A stretch of DNA of 64,000 nucleotides from Bacillota bacterium. Lineage in GTDB: Bacteria; Bacillota; Clostridia; DSM-8532. How positions within the stretch are numbered: the first letter of the stretch is position 1; every line of letters starts with the position of its first letter. The notes under the pieces were generated by a model. That model was not told the DNA's origin. It saw only the letters and a program-made list of their open reading frames with translations, and made no database searches. The stretch covers positions 1-64,000 of the forward strand of contig JAKIML020000098.1 in NCBI GenBank assembly GCA_022702935.2. The letters run 5' to 3'. Positions 2,528-30,033 of the stretch are shown piece by piece. Position numbers and translations under genes: made by a program.

Positions 2528-4051
2528 ATGAAAGACTATCAGCCAATCATTTCCCAATCCGCAACATGGTCCGTTTGCCTGCTCGTGATACTGTTTTCAA
2601 GAAATCTAGCCATAACAATCCCACTCGTAACTATAGCCTTCATTGTATCAGGATTCATCCAATTCTCTCACTTCAGGAAACGAAACCGGGACCTTGTTCA
2701 ACGTGTTGAAGCCCTTCAAAAGAATATCTCCCGATTCAATATGGATGTACAGGTTGCTTCCAGCCAGGTTGCCGCTGTCTCGGAGCAGCTTTTTTTAACC
2801 TTGGACGAAAACAATGCTTTCATGCAGCAATTATTTGCTGAAACTACTGAAATGAGTCATATGAGCAAGCAGACAAGTGATGAGGTGGCTGAGATCCTCT
2901 CAGGGGTACGCAATATTGTTGAACTGATGAACAACTCCACCACGGCCCGCGAAGCCCTTAACAGCATGAGTAAGCAGGCCAAGGAGGTTCTGGTTGGCGG
3001 CCTCTCCTCCATTCTGGAGATTGTCACAACCATAGACGGAATCCAAAAGACCACCGAAAAAACCGTGGATAATATGCAGAAGCTTGAAAGGGCTTCCAAT
3101 GAGATTGTGCTCATTCTTGAGAGCGTTATTGCCATCTCCAAGCAGACCCATCTGCTCGCACTGAACGCCGCCATAGAATCGGCCCGTGCCGGAGAGGCCG
3201 GCAAAGGGTTCGCCGTGGTTGCCGATGAAATACGCAAGCTGGCCCATGCTTCAAATCAGGCGGTTAAGGACGTCAACGCCCTGATTTCCACAATCCAGGA
3301 GGATATACAAGGGGTTCTTACGGTTGTGGATGAGAATTCTCGAAAGGTCGCAAAAGGGGTTCAGGTCTCCAGGGACATAGAAAGCTGCCTTAATCGCATC
3401 GACCATTCCTTTAATGAGGTGTTGGGCATGGTGGACCGCCTGGATGACCTCTCCAAGGACGAGATCGACGCCACCCATTATATTGGAGAACACATGGAAC
3501 GGGTGGAAAGGTTTGTGACCGACACCATGGACAGCGTTGAACATGTCTATGCCTCGGTTATGAAGCAGAAGGATAATCTTCAGGAGATCCAGGACATGGG
3601 GCTTCGCCTGAATAATGCCTCCAAGGACTTGACCAACCTGTTTGAAGGCGCCGAACCTACCATTATAAGCACGGTGAGTGAAGCTGCTTCTGCCAGACTG
3701 CAGCAGGCCTGGGACATCATTCAAAAGGAAATAAAGGGTGATTCAAGGCTTGAACTCTTCGATAAAAAGACCCATGAATCCTTGCTGCACGATGTGCTTG
3801 AAAGATATGATTTCATTGAAGCTGCCTGGACCAATGAGCAGCATGGGCGCTTCATTGTCTCCATCCCGGAAAACGGCATTGTCAACGCCTCGGTGCGTGA
3901 ATGGTTCAAAGCCGCAATAAAAGGGCAGGAATATGTGTCCGATATCTATGTATCAGCCATAACGAGAAAACCCTGCCTGACGCTATCGTCACCGATTTGC
4001 GACAAGCAGGGCAACATAAGGGGTGTTATTGGACTGGACATTAAAGTCTAG
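2528..4051 (+). CDS. methyl-accepting chemotaxis protein with C-terminal Cache-like domain
   Basis: Chemoreceptor-type signalling protein that would control CheA. The start at 2528 is preferred to 2483 because AAAGGAG precedes it. Residues about 13-47 form one or two membrane helices with almost no external loop. A long coiled coil follows, with the conserved signalling hairpin (ALNAAIESARAGEAGKGF, then VADEIRKLA) near residues 210-240. After the coiled coil, residues about 395-507 resemble a PDC/Cache sensor domain: the stretch YVSDIYVSAITRKP and the end GVIGLDIKV are typical of that fold. In ordinary receptors this domain lies outside the cell before the signalling domain; here it is C-terminal and must be cytoplasmic. 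No che genes are nearby, so the partner array is unknown. Confidence 0.9.
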   Translation: MKDYQPIISQSATWSVCLLVILFSRNLAITIPLVTIAFIVSGFIQFSHFRKRNRDLVQRVEALQKNISRFNMDVQVASSQVAAVSEQLFLTLDENNAFMQQLFAETTEMSHMSKQTSDEVAEILSGVRNIVELMNNSTTAREALNSMSKQAKEVLVGGLSSILEIVTTIDGIQKTTEKTVDNMQKLERASNEIVLILESVIAISKQTHLLALNAAIESARAGEAGKGFAVVADEIRKLAHASNQAVKDVNALISTIQEDIQGVLTVVDENSRKVAKGVQVSRDIESCLNRIDHSFNEVLGMVDRLDDLSKDEIDATHYIGEHMERVERFVTDTMDSVEHVYASVMKQKDNLQEIQDMGLRLNNASKDLTNLFEGAEPTIISTVSEAASARLQQAWDIIQKEIKGDSRLELFDKKTHESLLHDVLERYDFIEAAWTNEQHGRFIVSIPENGIVNASVREWFKAAIKGQEYVSDIYVSAITRKPCLTLSSPICDKQGNIRGVIGLDIKV

Positions 4052-25849: not shown

Positions 25850-26637
25850 CCTTCTCCCCCCTTACTCCTCCACTGTTTTTGCCATTCTAAGGAGAACACC
25901 TTATAGAAGCTCTCACTTTGAAGCACCTCGTCGGGCGTTCCCACACTAAGGACTGTCTTGTTAAGAAGCACCATCCGATCGGCATAGTTCTTCACCATAT
26001 CCAGGTCATGGGAAACCAGAATGATGGACAGGTCATAGGTCCTTCTCAGCTCTGAGACCGTCTCATAAAAGAGCTCCAGGCCGTTCTGATCAATCCCCGA
26101 TACGGGCTCGTCCAAAAGCAGAAGGTCGGGCATGGGATCTAAAGCCAGAGCTAAAAGCACGCGCTGAAGCTCGCCCCCTGAAAGGGCCCCCAGCCTCCGA
26201 TCTATGAGATGCTCGGCCTTTACCCTGGAAAGCCGTTCTCTCACACTGTTGACCTGTTTCCGGGAATGAATCAGCCAGGCTGGCAGGTGTGACCGGCAGG
26301 CCAGAAAGAGATCCAGGACACTGGTGGGTGAAGTGGTATCCAGCTTCAGGCTCTGTGGCACATATCCCATCACCGGGGTGTGTGACGGGCCCCCATTGGC
26401 CTGAACATAGGAGATGGTTCCCGTATGGGAGATCTCCCCCAATATGGCCTTAATCAAGGTGCTTTTACCCGCGCCATTGGGCCCGATGATGGCGGTCAGC
26501 TCACCGCAATGGATGTGCAGATTCACATCGGTAAGAATGGGGGTATTGCCGATGGTCACCCCGAAATGTTCAATTTTGGTGCAGCACAGGCCGCAGCCCG
26601 ATGCCGCCCGACGACTTATGTGATGCCTATTTTCCAT
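25846..26637 (-). CDS. znuC: zinc/manganese ABC transporter ATPase
   Basis: 263 residues. Walker A GPNGAGKSTL, ABC signature LSGGELQRVL, Walker B LLLLDEPVSGID and switch His in LVSHDLD are all present. A small extra N-terminal stretch of about 20 residues contains Cys and His (GCGLCCTK, MENRHH), which is unusual. It overlaps the stop of znuA by 11 bases and the start of znuB by 4. Confidence 0.92.
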   Translation of the reverse strand: MENRHHISRRAASGCGLCCTKIEHFGVTIGNTPILTDVNLHIHCGELTAIIGPNGAGKSTLIKAILGEISHTGTISYVQANGGPSHTPVMGYVPQSLKLDTTSPTSVLDLFLACRSHLPAWLIHSRKQVNSVRERLSRVKAEHLIDRRLGALSGGELQRVLLALALDPMPDLLLLDEPVSGIDQNGLELFYETVSELRRTYDLSIILVSHDLDMVKNYADRMVLLNKTVLSVGTPDEVLQSESFYKVFSLEWQKQWRSKGGEG

Positions 26638-27538
26638 TCAACGCCTCTAACAATACATCAAGATTTTTTTCCATGGTCTTTTCATAGCTGTCGGGGGATG
26701 CGTCCTTGGGCCCTGTTGCCACGGGATCCAGGGTATAGATCCTGGCTCCTGTTTGCTGCGCAATGGCCTCGGCGGATTTGGGCGAATACTGGGGTTCAAC
26801 AAAGAGTACCTTGGCCCCCGTTCTATTGATGGCCTCAATGGTCTCAATCATTTCCCCGGCAGTGGGCTCAGAGCCCGGTTCGCGTTCTATGACGGCAATG
26901 ATGTTGAGATTAAATTCCTGGGCAAAATAGGGAAAGGCCTCATGAAAGGTGACGATGTCCCTTGTTTTGACATCCTTAAGCGCCTCATGCATTTTATCCT
27001 TCAAAGCCTCAAGCCTGGCCACATACTCCTCGCAATTTTTGCGATAGCGTTCCGCATTGGCCGGATCGGCCGCCATAAGGCCGTCAGCAATGTTTTTTAC
27101 CTCCTGGATGGCTCCCGATATACCCACCCAAACATGGGGATTCTCCTCGCCGTTCTCGTCGATTAAAAGCGGAATCCCCTTGCTGCCCTCAATGATGGTA
27201 AGCTTGGGGAGCTGTTGGGTTACCTCTTCCAAAAAGGATTCCATGCCTGCGCCATTGATGACAAAGATGTCGGCCTTGCTCAGGGTTTTCATATCGGATG
27301 CCACCAACTGATAGTCATGAAGACACCCGGTCTGGGGCTCGGTCATATTCACCACCTTAACCCCCGGTACATCCTTGGTGATATTCACCGTAAAGACATA
27401 GAGGGGATAAAAAGAAGTGACTATCTGTATTTCATTATCAGCTTCCGATTTCCTGTTCCCTGTACCGCAGGCTGTAAAAACCATGCCTAAGATCAGAAAA
27501 ACAACGAATAGCCTGAGGGTTGTTCTATACTTTTTCAA
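26627..27538 (-). CDS. znuA: zinc ABC transporter substrate-binding lipoprotein
   Basis: 303 residues with a signal peptide and lipobox (GMVFTACGTGN, Cys near residue 24). It belongs to cluster A-I metal-binding proteins (ZnuA/MntA). Metal ligands are likely His in GCLHDYQLV, His in NPHVWVG, His in FHEAFPYFA and an acidic residue in TLDPVA. It lacks the His-rich loop seen in many ZnuA proteins. First gene of the znuA-znuC-znuB-zur operon. Confidence 0.88.
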   Translation of the reverse strand: MKKYRTTLRLFVVFLILGMVFTACGTGNRKSEADNEIQIVTSFYPLYVFTVNITKDVPGVKVVNMTEPQTGCLHDYQLVASDMKTLSKADIFVINGAGMESFLEEVTQQLPKLTIIEGSKGIPLLIDENGEENPHVWVGISGAIQEVKNIADGLMAADPANAERYRKNCEEYVARLEALKDKMHEALKDVKTRDIVTFHEAFPYFAQEFNLNIIAVIEREPGSEPTAGEMIETIEAINRTGAKVLFVEPQYSPKSAEAIAQQTGARIYTLDPVATGPKDASPDSYEKTMEKNLDVLLEALNGK

Positions 27539-27555: not shown

Positions 27556-27570
27556 TAAGAATCATTCGCA
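27556..27570 (-). promoter_or_regulatory. candidate Zur box upstream of znuA
   Basis: A 7-1-7-like partly palindromic sequence TAAGAATCATTCGCA with the perfect core GAATGATTC lies 18 bases before the start codon. Three imperfect hexamers (GCAAAT, GCAAAT, GCGAAT on the minus strand) lie next to it. Matches to Fur-type boxes are partial. Confidence 0.35.
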
Positions 27571-27634
27571 TTTGCATTTGCACCTATTTATTATGCATCA
27601 AAACGCACTGAAATAAAAGAGAAATCTTTCATGC

Positions 27635-27756: not shown

Positions 27757-27858
27757 CTACTGCCACCGACTCCTTCTAAAGCAGCAGCAACAGCAACAAC
27801 AGCAACAGCAGCAACAACATCTTCTGCAACAACATCTACGTCTACCGAAAAAGAACAT
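27757..27858 (-). CDS. 33-residue poly-cysteine micro-ORF (unknown)
   Basis: Read from the ATG at 27858 the product has a short aromatic start (MFFFG), three Arg, three Cys, two Arg, then 13 consecutive Cys and a basic tail FRRSRWQ: 16 Cys in 33 residues. GAGGAG lies 7 bases before the ATG, and a terminator follows at 27661. TGT and TGC are mixed irregularly, which a simple DNA repeat would not need, although the other two minus-strand frames and a plus-strand Gln frame across the same repeat are also open for a distance. The position, between a zinc-ribbon gene and the zinc-import operon, suggests metal binding; a spore or coat role is the other candidate. I do not recognise a family. An alternative frame from ATG at 27915 region cannot be excluded. 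Confidence 0.5.
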   Translation of the reverse strand: MFFFGRRRCCCRRCCCCCCCCCCCCCFRRSRWQ

Positions 27859-27888
27859 CTCCATACTCCTCGTACAAGCTCCTGATAC

Positions 27889-27915
27889 AGTGTATGCATG
27901 TCCTTGGCATTTTGA
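27889..27915 (-). promoter_or_regulatory. possible sporulation (SigE-type) promoter of the micro-ORF
   Basis: On the minus strand CATACACT (27889-27896) matches the SigE -10 consensus CATACAMT. A weak -35 TCAAAAT (27909-27915) lies 12 bases upstream, slightly closer than the usual 13-15. Transcription would begin near 27882, giving a leader of about 24 bases that includes the GAGGAG site. Confidence 0.35.
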
Positions 27916-27946: not shown

Positions 27947-27976
27947 AAAAAAGCTCCCGGAATACTCTCCGGGAGC
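27947..27976 (-). terminator. second terminator after the zinc-ribbon gene
   Basis: 8-bp stem GCTCCCGG/CCGGGAGC (27953-27960 and 27969-27976) followed on the minus strand by TTTTTT. Confidence 0.85.
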
Positions 27977-27996
27977 CTAAGGTTTTTTATGCAAGC

Positions 27997-28024: not shown

Positions 28025-28216
28025 TTACCAACGGTTTCCGCCGCCAAAGCCTCTGTTTGCACTTCTGTTGTTTCTTTCCGCTTTTCTAGCGCGTCTGCAT
28101 TCAGGACATCTCTGGGGCTCGTTTTCAAATCCCTTTTCCTGGTAGAAAGCCTGTTCGCCTTCTGTAAAAATGAATTCTGCGTTGCAATCTTTGCATACCA
28201 ATGTTTTATCGGCCAT
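28025..28216 (-). CDS. small zinc-ribbon protein
   Basis: 63 residues: two C-x2-C knuckles (VCKDCNAEF and RCPECRRARK) forming a probable zinc ribbon, followed by a basic, Asn/Gly-rich tail (NRSANRGFGGGNRW) that may touch RNA or DNA. Similar short proteins are common in Clostridia without known function. AAGGAGG precedes the ATG, a promoter lies at 28334-28362, and two terminators follow, so it is a separate unit. Confidence 0.85.
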   Translation of the reverse strand: MADKTLVCKDCNAEFIFTEGEQAFYQEKGFENEPQRCPECRRARKAERNNRSANRGFGGGNRW

Positions 28217-28394: not shown

Positions 28395-29420
28395 TTATCG
28401 GTCAATCTGACTAATAATTTTAAGGAAGGCAGTGCCTATGGGCAGGCGCTGGATGTCATCCATGGCAAAGAACTTTACGGGCTCTATATTGAGTATAGCC
28501 CTCAGGCGTTCTTCATTCTTGCCGGTATACTCAACCACCACCGGCAAAAGCCGCCACCTTTTGTGGGTAAAAACATGGCGCACAGGGTTCAGTGGCTGTC
28601 CCAAGGCACATAGTCTCTCATAGAGGGACTCATCAAGAAGGGGAAATCCCCAAAGGTTTGCCAACAGGCCGTTCTCCGGACGTTTTTCCAGATAATAAGC
28701 CTCCCCCCGTTTCAGGACAAGAGCTGTATAGACTTCCTCAACGGGCTTCTCCTTCCTGGCTTTCACCGGATAGGCCTCAGTATTGCCCTGGGCATAGGCC
28801 TTGCAGGTACTTTGGACGGGGCACTCGGAACACTTGGGGCTTCTGGGAGTACAAATAAGGGCGCCCAGTTCCATTAAGGCCTGATTGTAGACCGAGGGCT
28901 CCCCCTCCATATGCTCCAAAACTAATCTTTCAAACAGCCTTTTGGATTTTGTTGAGCCAATATCCTCATCTATGGCGAACTGGCGTGCCATGATACGCAT
29001 CACATTGCCATCCACAGCGGCAACGGGCTGGTTGAAGGCAATACTTAAGATGGCCCCTGCTGTATAGTCCCCGATTCCTGGGATTTGGGCAATCTCCTTA
29101 AGGCTGGTGGGGAAACGTCCATGAAGTTCACGGACAATCTTCTTAACCCCCTTGTGAAGATTTTCGGCACGCCGATAATAGCCCAGCCCCTTCCAAAGGG
29201 CAAGCACCTCTTCCAATTCAGCCCGGGCCAGAGCCTCTATGGTGGGAAAACGCTCGCAAAAGCGAAGATAATAGGGAATGACCGTATCCACCTGGGTCTG
29301 CTGCAGCATAACCTCAGAAACCCAGATTTTATAGGGATCCTTGGTTTTTCGCCAGGGCATTTCTCTCTGATGTTGTAAAAACCAATGGTTTAAGTCCGAA
29401 CCAAAACTCAAGGCAAACAT
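28395..29420 (-). CDS. mutY: A/G-specific adenine glycosylase
   Basis: Removes adenine mispaired with 8-oxoguanine. 341 residues. The helix-hairpin-helix and catalytic Asp lie in QIPGIGDYTAGAIL and AAVDGNVMRIMAR; the iron-sulfur motif C-x6-C-x2-C-x5-C is exact (CTPRSPKCSECPVQSTC). The C-terminal MutT-like domain that recognises 8-oxoG is present (ENGLLANLWGFPLLDE). Confidence 0.95.
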   Translation of the reverse strand: MFALSFGSDLNHWFLQHQREMPWRKTKDPYKIWVSEVMLQQTQVDTVIPYYLRFCERFPTIEALARAELEEVLALWKGLGYYRRAENLHKGVKKIVRELHGRFPTSLKEIAQIPGIGDYTAGAILSIAFNQPVAAVDGNVMRIMARQFAIDEDIGSTKSKRLFERLVLEHMEGEPSVYNQALMELGALICTPRSPKCSECPVQSTCKAYAQGNTEAYPVKARKEKPVEEVYTALVLKRGEAYYLEKRPENGLLANLWGFPLLDESLYERLCALGQPLNPVRHVFTHKRWRLLPVVVEYTGKNEERLRAILNIEPVKFFAMDDIQRLPIGTAFLKIISQIDR

Positions 29421-29553
29421 CCATCCTTTATCGAGGAGAAGTAATGCTTCCTAGTATAGCATGGATGTACCAAGGCTTCCAGAATGAAAGTTCACCACAA
29501 ATGAGAAATACTGTTTGAAAGGATTAAGAAAAGAGGTCCCTGATTTGACCCCC

Positions 29554-30033
29554 TTACTTGCCACCATCATATACCATATACTGTAAAGAAACCTCTTCCT
29601 GTTTAAATCCACATCTTTCGAAAAGTAATTTTCCCTTCGATGTAGCATGCAGCGTGATCCTGTAATATCCTAATCTTCTTGCTTCGTTTACAGCCATTTC
29701 TATAAGATTCTTACCAATGCCGGAGCGCCTGTATCCAGGGACAACATACACGTTTTGAATATAGGCATTACCGCCCTGGGGCAGCTTTCTGCCGGGTAAG
29801 ACATGATAAAGGCTGACCGAAGCTGTTCCCGCAAACGTATTGTCGCAGAATGCAAGAACAGCGAAGAAGGCCCCGGACTTAAGCCCCTTTTCCATGACCT
29901 TTCTGCAGTTTTCAGCGAAAACCTCTTTATCCTGCTCGGAAAACGGGCCTGAATCTTCCTCAATTAAAGCGATACGTGTCTGCAATAGCAATTCCATATC
30001 CGATAGAGTGGCAAATCGATATTCAATCTTCAT
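29554..30033 (-). CDS. GNAT-family N-acetyltransferase
   Basis: 159 residues. The acetyl-CoA pyrophosphate loop is VVPGYRRSGIGKNLIEMAV near residue 105, followed by GYYRITLHATSKGKLLFERCGF. The acceptor is unknown. It is a single gene between mutY and the spo0A terminator. Confidence 0.88.
   Translation of the reverse strand: MKIEYRFATLSDMELLLQTRIALIEEDSGPFSEQDKEVFAENCRKVMEKGLKSGAFFAVLAFCDNTFAGTASVSLYHVLPGRKLPQGGNAYIQNVYVVPGYRRSGIGKNLIEMAVNEARRLGYYRITLHATSKGKLLFERCGFKQEEVSLQYMVYDGGK

Follow-up and report, generated by a model that had tools for sequence, protein, structure and literature searches.

A short open reading frame on the minus strand of the window (the whole 64,000-nucleotide stretch of DNA analyzed herein) encodes a peptide with 13 consecutive cysteines, and comparison with relatives indicates that it is a maintained gene that is coding, conserved and autonomous. 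On balance, we consider it probable that this micro-gene stands alone, is translated, represents a genus-wide orthologous family, and acts through bulk thiol and polycation chemistry. Consecutive Cys residues are rare in proteins and, according to one survey, are apparently selected against in eukaryotes (PMC2231379). The unit and its surroundings contain the following features.

27757..27858, minus strand: Cys/Arg-rich micro-ORF, 33 amino acids plus stop codon (translation, orthologs, coding tests)
27866..27883, minus strand: conserved leader AGGAGCTTGTACGAGGAG, ending in a Shine-Dalgarno (SD) sequence (comparison with relatives)
27889..27896, minus strand: CATACACT, a -10-like element and candidate sigma site ([CA]ATANNNT in orthologs; likeness to the SigE/SigK boxes of C. 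difficile, PMC3789822)
27643..27662, minus strand: intrinsic terminator of the micro-gene unit (terminator search)
27951..27978, minus strand: upstream intrinsic terminator, which parts the unit from zf_Tbcl (terminator search)
28025..28216, minus strand: zf_Tbcl (PF13451), the usual upstream neighbor (family match)
26627..27538, minus strand: znuA (PF01297), first gene of znuACB-zur and conserved neighbor (family match)
27559..27576, minus strand: Zur-like box TGCAAATGCGAATGATTC of znuA, outside the micro-gene leader (box search)

Read from 27858 to 27757 on the minus strand, the frame translates to MFFFGRRRCCCRRCCCCCCCCCCCCCFRRSRWQ, followed by TAG. A preliminary description had claimed 33 residues with 16 cysteines, 13 in a row, preceded by a GAGGAG, and the translation and the upstream sequence agree with it in each respect. 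Two alternative in-frame ATGs lie upstream (27921, giving 54 residues, and 27864, giving MEMFFF...); of the three start codons, that at 27858 alone matches the SD spacing of the relatives. Seven successive TGY codons (TGYx7) occur within the window only in the micro-ORF and in none of 100 dinucleotide-preserving shuffles, and the micro-ORF is the sole such site in the 3.17-Mb genome. Tandem Repeats Finder detected the plus-strand CAGCAACAA repeat, so that slippage probably lengthened the Cys run, which is itself probably a TGY-triplet expansion within a tolerant sequence.

Pattern searches of the genus genomes recovered a Cys/Arg-rich ORF of 27-38 codons beside znuACB-zur in 11 of 14 genomes, the window's own included. 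As to the other three, a contig edge lies just upstream of znuA in G003, no znuA match was obtained in G005, and the genome G008 is incomplete. The ten orthologous peptides are as follows.

G001: MFFGIWNRRRNRCCCRCCCRCCCCCRCCCCCRCCC
G002: MFFGIFNRRRNRCCFRCFCRCCCCCRCCCCCRCCC
G011: MFFGSWSRRRRRCCCRCCCRCCCCCRCCCVCCCRCCW
G004: MCIRNRWRLNCRRCRRCCCCCFICCCCRRCCCCCRCIC
G006: MCFRNRRRLNIFCGRRCRRCCCCCCCCCCCCCRCCCRF
G007: MCIRNRRRLFCGRRCRRCCCCRCRCCRF
G009: MCCLNFCRCRCIFCRRCCCKRRFRRRFGCC
G010: MSCNYWSRSGPADRNRRCCCCRRRSRSFCRRRRCFGFF
G012: MCCFRFCRRRRRCCCRKRRVNRCCRAY
G013: MCFFKFCCCRCCCCCIRCPRRRRRDCGRF

The 11 members are 27-38 amino acids in length, with 18-54% Cys (7-19 residues per peptide), 23-44% Arg/Lys (8-12 residues), and almost no acidic residues. 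Cys and Arg/Lys together account for 69-77% of ten members and for 50% of G010. From member to member, the residues change in order and the Cys run changes in length; the changing repeat number that had been anticipated for a conserved Cys frame was indeed seen, with the longest run ranging from 3 to 13. The conserved feature thus appears to be composition rather than position, and the 13-Cys run itself is not conserved. Since composition is kept while order and run length vary, the comparison points to selection on a bulk property, namely charge plus thiols. Such a pattern, in which composition is retained and order is not, recalls protamines, and with 8-12 basic residues and almost no acidic ones the peptide might bind as a polycation either to nucleic acid, in the manner of protamines, or to membranes, in the manner of an antimicrobial or a toxin. 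We regard this as improbable: Cys outnumbers Arg/Lys in 8 of the 11 members, no library match was obtained, and the identified neighbors include no gene for an export transporter, immunity, maturation or an antitoxin.

Judging from how the sequence varies among relatives, the micro-ORF is very probably coding. The Cys frame is the only one of the six frames that lacks an internal stop codon in all 11 members. In the close trio G001, G002 and G011, differences by codon position were 0/3/9, 0/3/9 and 0/6/11, and dN/dS in the Cys frame was 0.08, 0.13 and 0.18 (Nei-Gojobori, ratio of proportions), statistics drawn from a small number of closely related pairs, each 27-38 codons long. If the Val/Ala frame or the other-strand Ala/Thr frame is taken as coding, none of the 12-18 changes is synonymous. 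The preliminary description had regarded coding as unproven because the minus-strand Leu and plus-strand Gln frames are also synonymous there. The Gln frame indeed looks constrained (dN/dS of 0.12-0.21), as is expected from the pairing of CAR with TGY, but it is interrupted in 5 of the 11 genomes. Gaps within the ORF measure 3, 6 and 30 nt, and 1-nt gaps are confined to the leader and the 3' UTR. Conservation of the start codon and of the Cys frame, with indels in multiples of three, had been proposed as the test of coding, and this is the pattern observed among the 11 orthologs.

The tandem-repeat structure, the conserved leader and the long 3' UTR (~100 nt) are also what one might see in a TGY microsatellite or a regulatory RNA in which the Cys frame is incidental. 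However, frame, start and stop are kept in 11 genomes, together with Arg codons and third-position change; the predicted RNA fold of the window's micro-gene is no more stable than its shuffles (z=+0.68) and shows no unusual structure; and no Rfam family matched at the gathering score, the sub-threshold matches all lying upstream of the micro-gene. A non-coding origin is therefore very unlikely.

The leader is common to all 11 members and reads AGGAG(N)CTTGTAC...GGAG (AGAAG in G012), with the ATG 6-8 nt downstream. Single-base indels within it (AGGAGC/AGGAGGC; CAAGG/CAAAGG/CAAAAAGG) throw the sequence ahead of the ATG out of frame, and thus translation from farther upstream is not conserved. 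At the position equivalent to 27866-27883, the ten relatives carry a near-palindrome, CTTGTACAAG, which could be an operator or an RNA element of the 5' end. The near-palindrome is kept across large divergence and gives one match per carrying genome, before the micro-gene only. At the other end of the unit, a terminator had been claimed after the micro-ORF, and an intrinsic terminator was found at 27662-27643, ~95 nt past the stop codon. In several members, CCCATGC-like stretches recur in the ~100-nt 3' UTR between the ORF and the terminator. Upstream, a second terminator occurs at 28020-28000 in addition to that at 27951..27978. With SD sequence, start and frame kept in relatives, and the terminator kept in most of them, the earlier view of a complete small gene holds.

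The same description had proposed a possible SigE-type promoter. CATACACT does resemble a SigE -10, but a -35 element with constant spacing could not be aligned among the orthologs, so that such a promoter is not established. This likeness bears on a second candidate role, that of a cross-linking peptide of a spore layer, made in the mother cell. The -10-like [CA]ATANNNT resembles SigE/SigK boxes (PMC3789822), spo0A lies nearby, and Cys-rich proteins (CdeC, CsxA) build the clostridial exosporium (PMC6101409, PMC7333573). Every near-complete genome of the genus has spoIVA, which agrees with this role, although a gene so widespread gives a distribution that cannot discriminate a sporulation link. 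Against the role stand the lack of a constant-spacing -35 and a genus-wide scan in which intergenic matches to the -35/-10 pair were almost solely this micro-gene. A comparison with the spoIVA promoters of the genus revealed no clear shared motif (3 of 12 aligned). We consider a spore-layer function possible but rather unlikely in this specific form.

Where the contig is long enough, the gene order is spo0A - zf_Tbcl - micro-ORF - znuA - znuC - znuB - zur, with two exceptions: G002 has no zf_Tbcl match there, and in the window additional genes separate spo0A from zf_Tbcl. These are MutY-like and acetyltransferase-like genes at 28395-30033; wherever a relative yielded both spo0A and zf_Tbcl, the two adjoin. 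In G013, a transposase-like ORF starts just past the micro-gene near the contig end (L034/L127), and znuA is located at the edge of a separate contig.

The micro-ORF is codirectional with its neighbors in the window, G009, G010, G012 and G013, and reversed relative to znuA and zf_Tbcl in G001, G002, G004, G006, G007 and G011. Expressed by locus, a unit of ~300 nt is inverted between two fixed neighbors in L119, L120, L121, L122, L123 and L126 compared with the window, L124, L125, L127 and L132. The reversed genomes group together in a tree of Spo0A, ZnuA and ZnuC from nine genomes (ultrafast bootstrap 83), and so a single in-place inversion within the genus suffices and apparently is what happened. 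Phase variation through flanking inverted repeats was rejected, since in the window the unit is not bordered by long repeats of this kind. Both orientations keep the leader and the ORF, and most genomes keep the hairpin-T terminator.

This survival of leader and ORF through inversion argues for an autonomous unit and disfavors a role as an attenuator of znu. In such an attenuator, scarce Cys-tRNA would stall ribosomes on the Cys run, the terminator would be relieved, and the downstream gene (znuA) would be switched on. The order of Cys run, terminator and codirectional znuA in the window, G009, G010 and G012 fits this scheme, and leaderless polycysteine sORFs of mycobacteria behave in this way according to the account of Canestrari et al. 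(2020) given in PMC9094748. However, with the unit reversed in 6 of 11 genomes there is no conserved downstream gene in the same direction; in addition, the window terminator lies ~95 nt beyond the stop codon, and znuA has its own Zur-like box past the terminator. We hold attenuation to be hardly probable, and take the micro-gene to be a unit of its own.

The neighbors also raise the question of zinc. A zinc-storage or buffering peptide, analogous to metallothionein and coupled to znuACB-zur, would account for 7-19 cysteines per peptide and for the fixed adjacency, in this genus only, to znuACB-zur and usually to zf_Tbcl. On the other hand, adjacency may reflect gene-order inertia within one genus, long Cys runs with Arg are unlike metallothionein motifs, and no fewer than 140 nt separate the Zur-like box from the start of the micro-ORF in all nine genomes that have both. 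This box belongs to znuA; no Zur box that would place the micro-gene in the Zur regulon was found at its promoter. We give storage about the same modest chance as the spore-layer role.

No match was found in Pfam and NCBIfam (both at E up to 10), PHROGs, PDB sequences, or Rfam at the gathering score, searches that low complexity weakens, and a literature search returned, within the library consulted, no description of such a Cys/Arg microprotein family. The micro-gene is thus a real gene whose family was not found in the libraries searched. The other six genera of the family yielded no leader together with such an ORF (a lone leader match in G019 lacks the ORF), and no Cys-rich micro-ORF at the znuA and zf_Tbcl loci examined. 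A phylum-wide search for RRCCCCC produced no convincing relative among its matches, and the one match to MFFF..RR..CCCC in viral contigs lacks the RRCCCCC stretch. In a named genome collection, the same pattern gave 10 matches, of which only L117 is a Cys/Arg micro-ORF. This look-alike (G341, 3850-3891, minus strand; the same genome as L053/L134) begins MFFFRRRCCCCCCC, and another, L049/L135 (G379), begins MSIFRRRCCCCCCCC; both come from other families of the Clostridia. Like the micro-gene, both have an SD sequence and a terminator, but they differ in their tails (Arg/Glu repeats; TTGRFSD repeats), in their neighbors, and in having no common leader, and we claim no homology; they are possibly independent inventions of the same type of peptide. 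Other candidates were rejected: the TGYx7 matches of genus g4 (L007-L009) and the own-genome match C92 (L002) are the Gln-rich opposite strand of a J-domain-like gene, and the C116 match of G012 lies upstream of spoIVA and is likewise Gln-rich. The J-domain-like gene, with its variable Gln-rich stretches (L002, L007, L008, L009), is a main source of opposite-strand TGY-repeat matches in the family (own genome and genus g4).

As to function, the product is most likely a basic thiol peptide engaged in metal binding and/or disulfide cross-linking. A polycation with 8-12 Arg/Lys that bears 7-19 thiols would work through bulk chemistry: the thiols may bind soft metal ions, zinc being the first guess from the neighbors, and/or the peptide may form disulfide cross-links with itself or with a polyanionic partner, possibly during sporulation. 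Such action would account for a retained composition alongside a drifting residue order and Cys-run length. A zinc setting is suggested by the neighbors and a sporulation setting by the SigE/SigK-like -10 and the nearby spo0A; we infer that the two are about equally likely, with thiol/metal chemistry leading. A broader and more tentative proposal, the chances of which seem somewhat short of even, is that of a new bacterial microprotein family (27-38 residues, up to 77% Cys plus Arg/Lys) that would be selected for bulk composition over sequence, would cross-link in a manner set by redox state or by zinc, possibly when spores form, and would have independent counterparts in other Clostridia. Genes so short and of such low complexity easily escape automatic annotation and profile searches; therefore, such microproteins may be under-counted. 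With 11 natural variants of length and composition and one inversion, both the role of the peptide and composition-only selection become directly testable.

Metallothioneins contain spaced CxC/CC motifs and His, rather than long Cys runs with Arg. Bacterial metallothioneins of the SmtA/BmtA type resemble the micro-peptide in being small and thiol-dense, and the micro-gene has zinc-uptake neighbors; however, the micro-peptide has Cys runs instead of spaced motifs, contains no His, and is strongly basic, and its gene has no Zur-like box at the promoter. The earlier comparison with metallothioneins thus concerns a property rather than membership; no match to Pfam or NCBIfam was obtained at E up to 10, a search weakened by low complexity. 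Protamines are likewise short Arg/Cys-rich peptides of conserved composition and drifting order, but Cys dominates most of the micro-peptides, which are bacterial and known here by composition alone. CdeC and CsxA share the richness in Cys but are much larger proteins, and for the micro-peptide a link to sporulation is only possible. Finally, the polycysteine sORFs of mycobacteria are also short, dominated by Cys codons, and located before a terminator; in contrast to those leaderless sORFs, the micro-ORF is led by an SD sequence, stands alone, is reversed in six genomes, is rich in Arg, and appears constrained at the level of the peptide.
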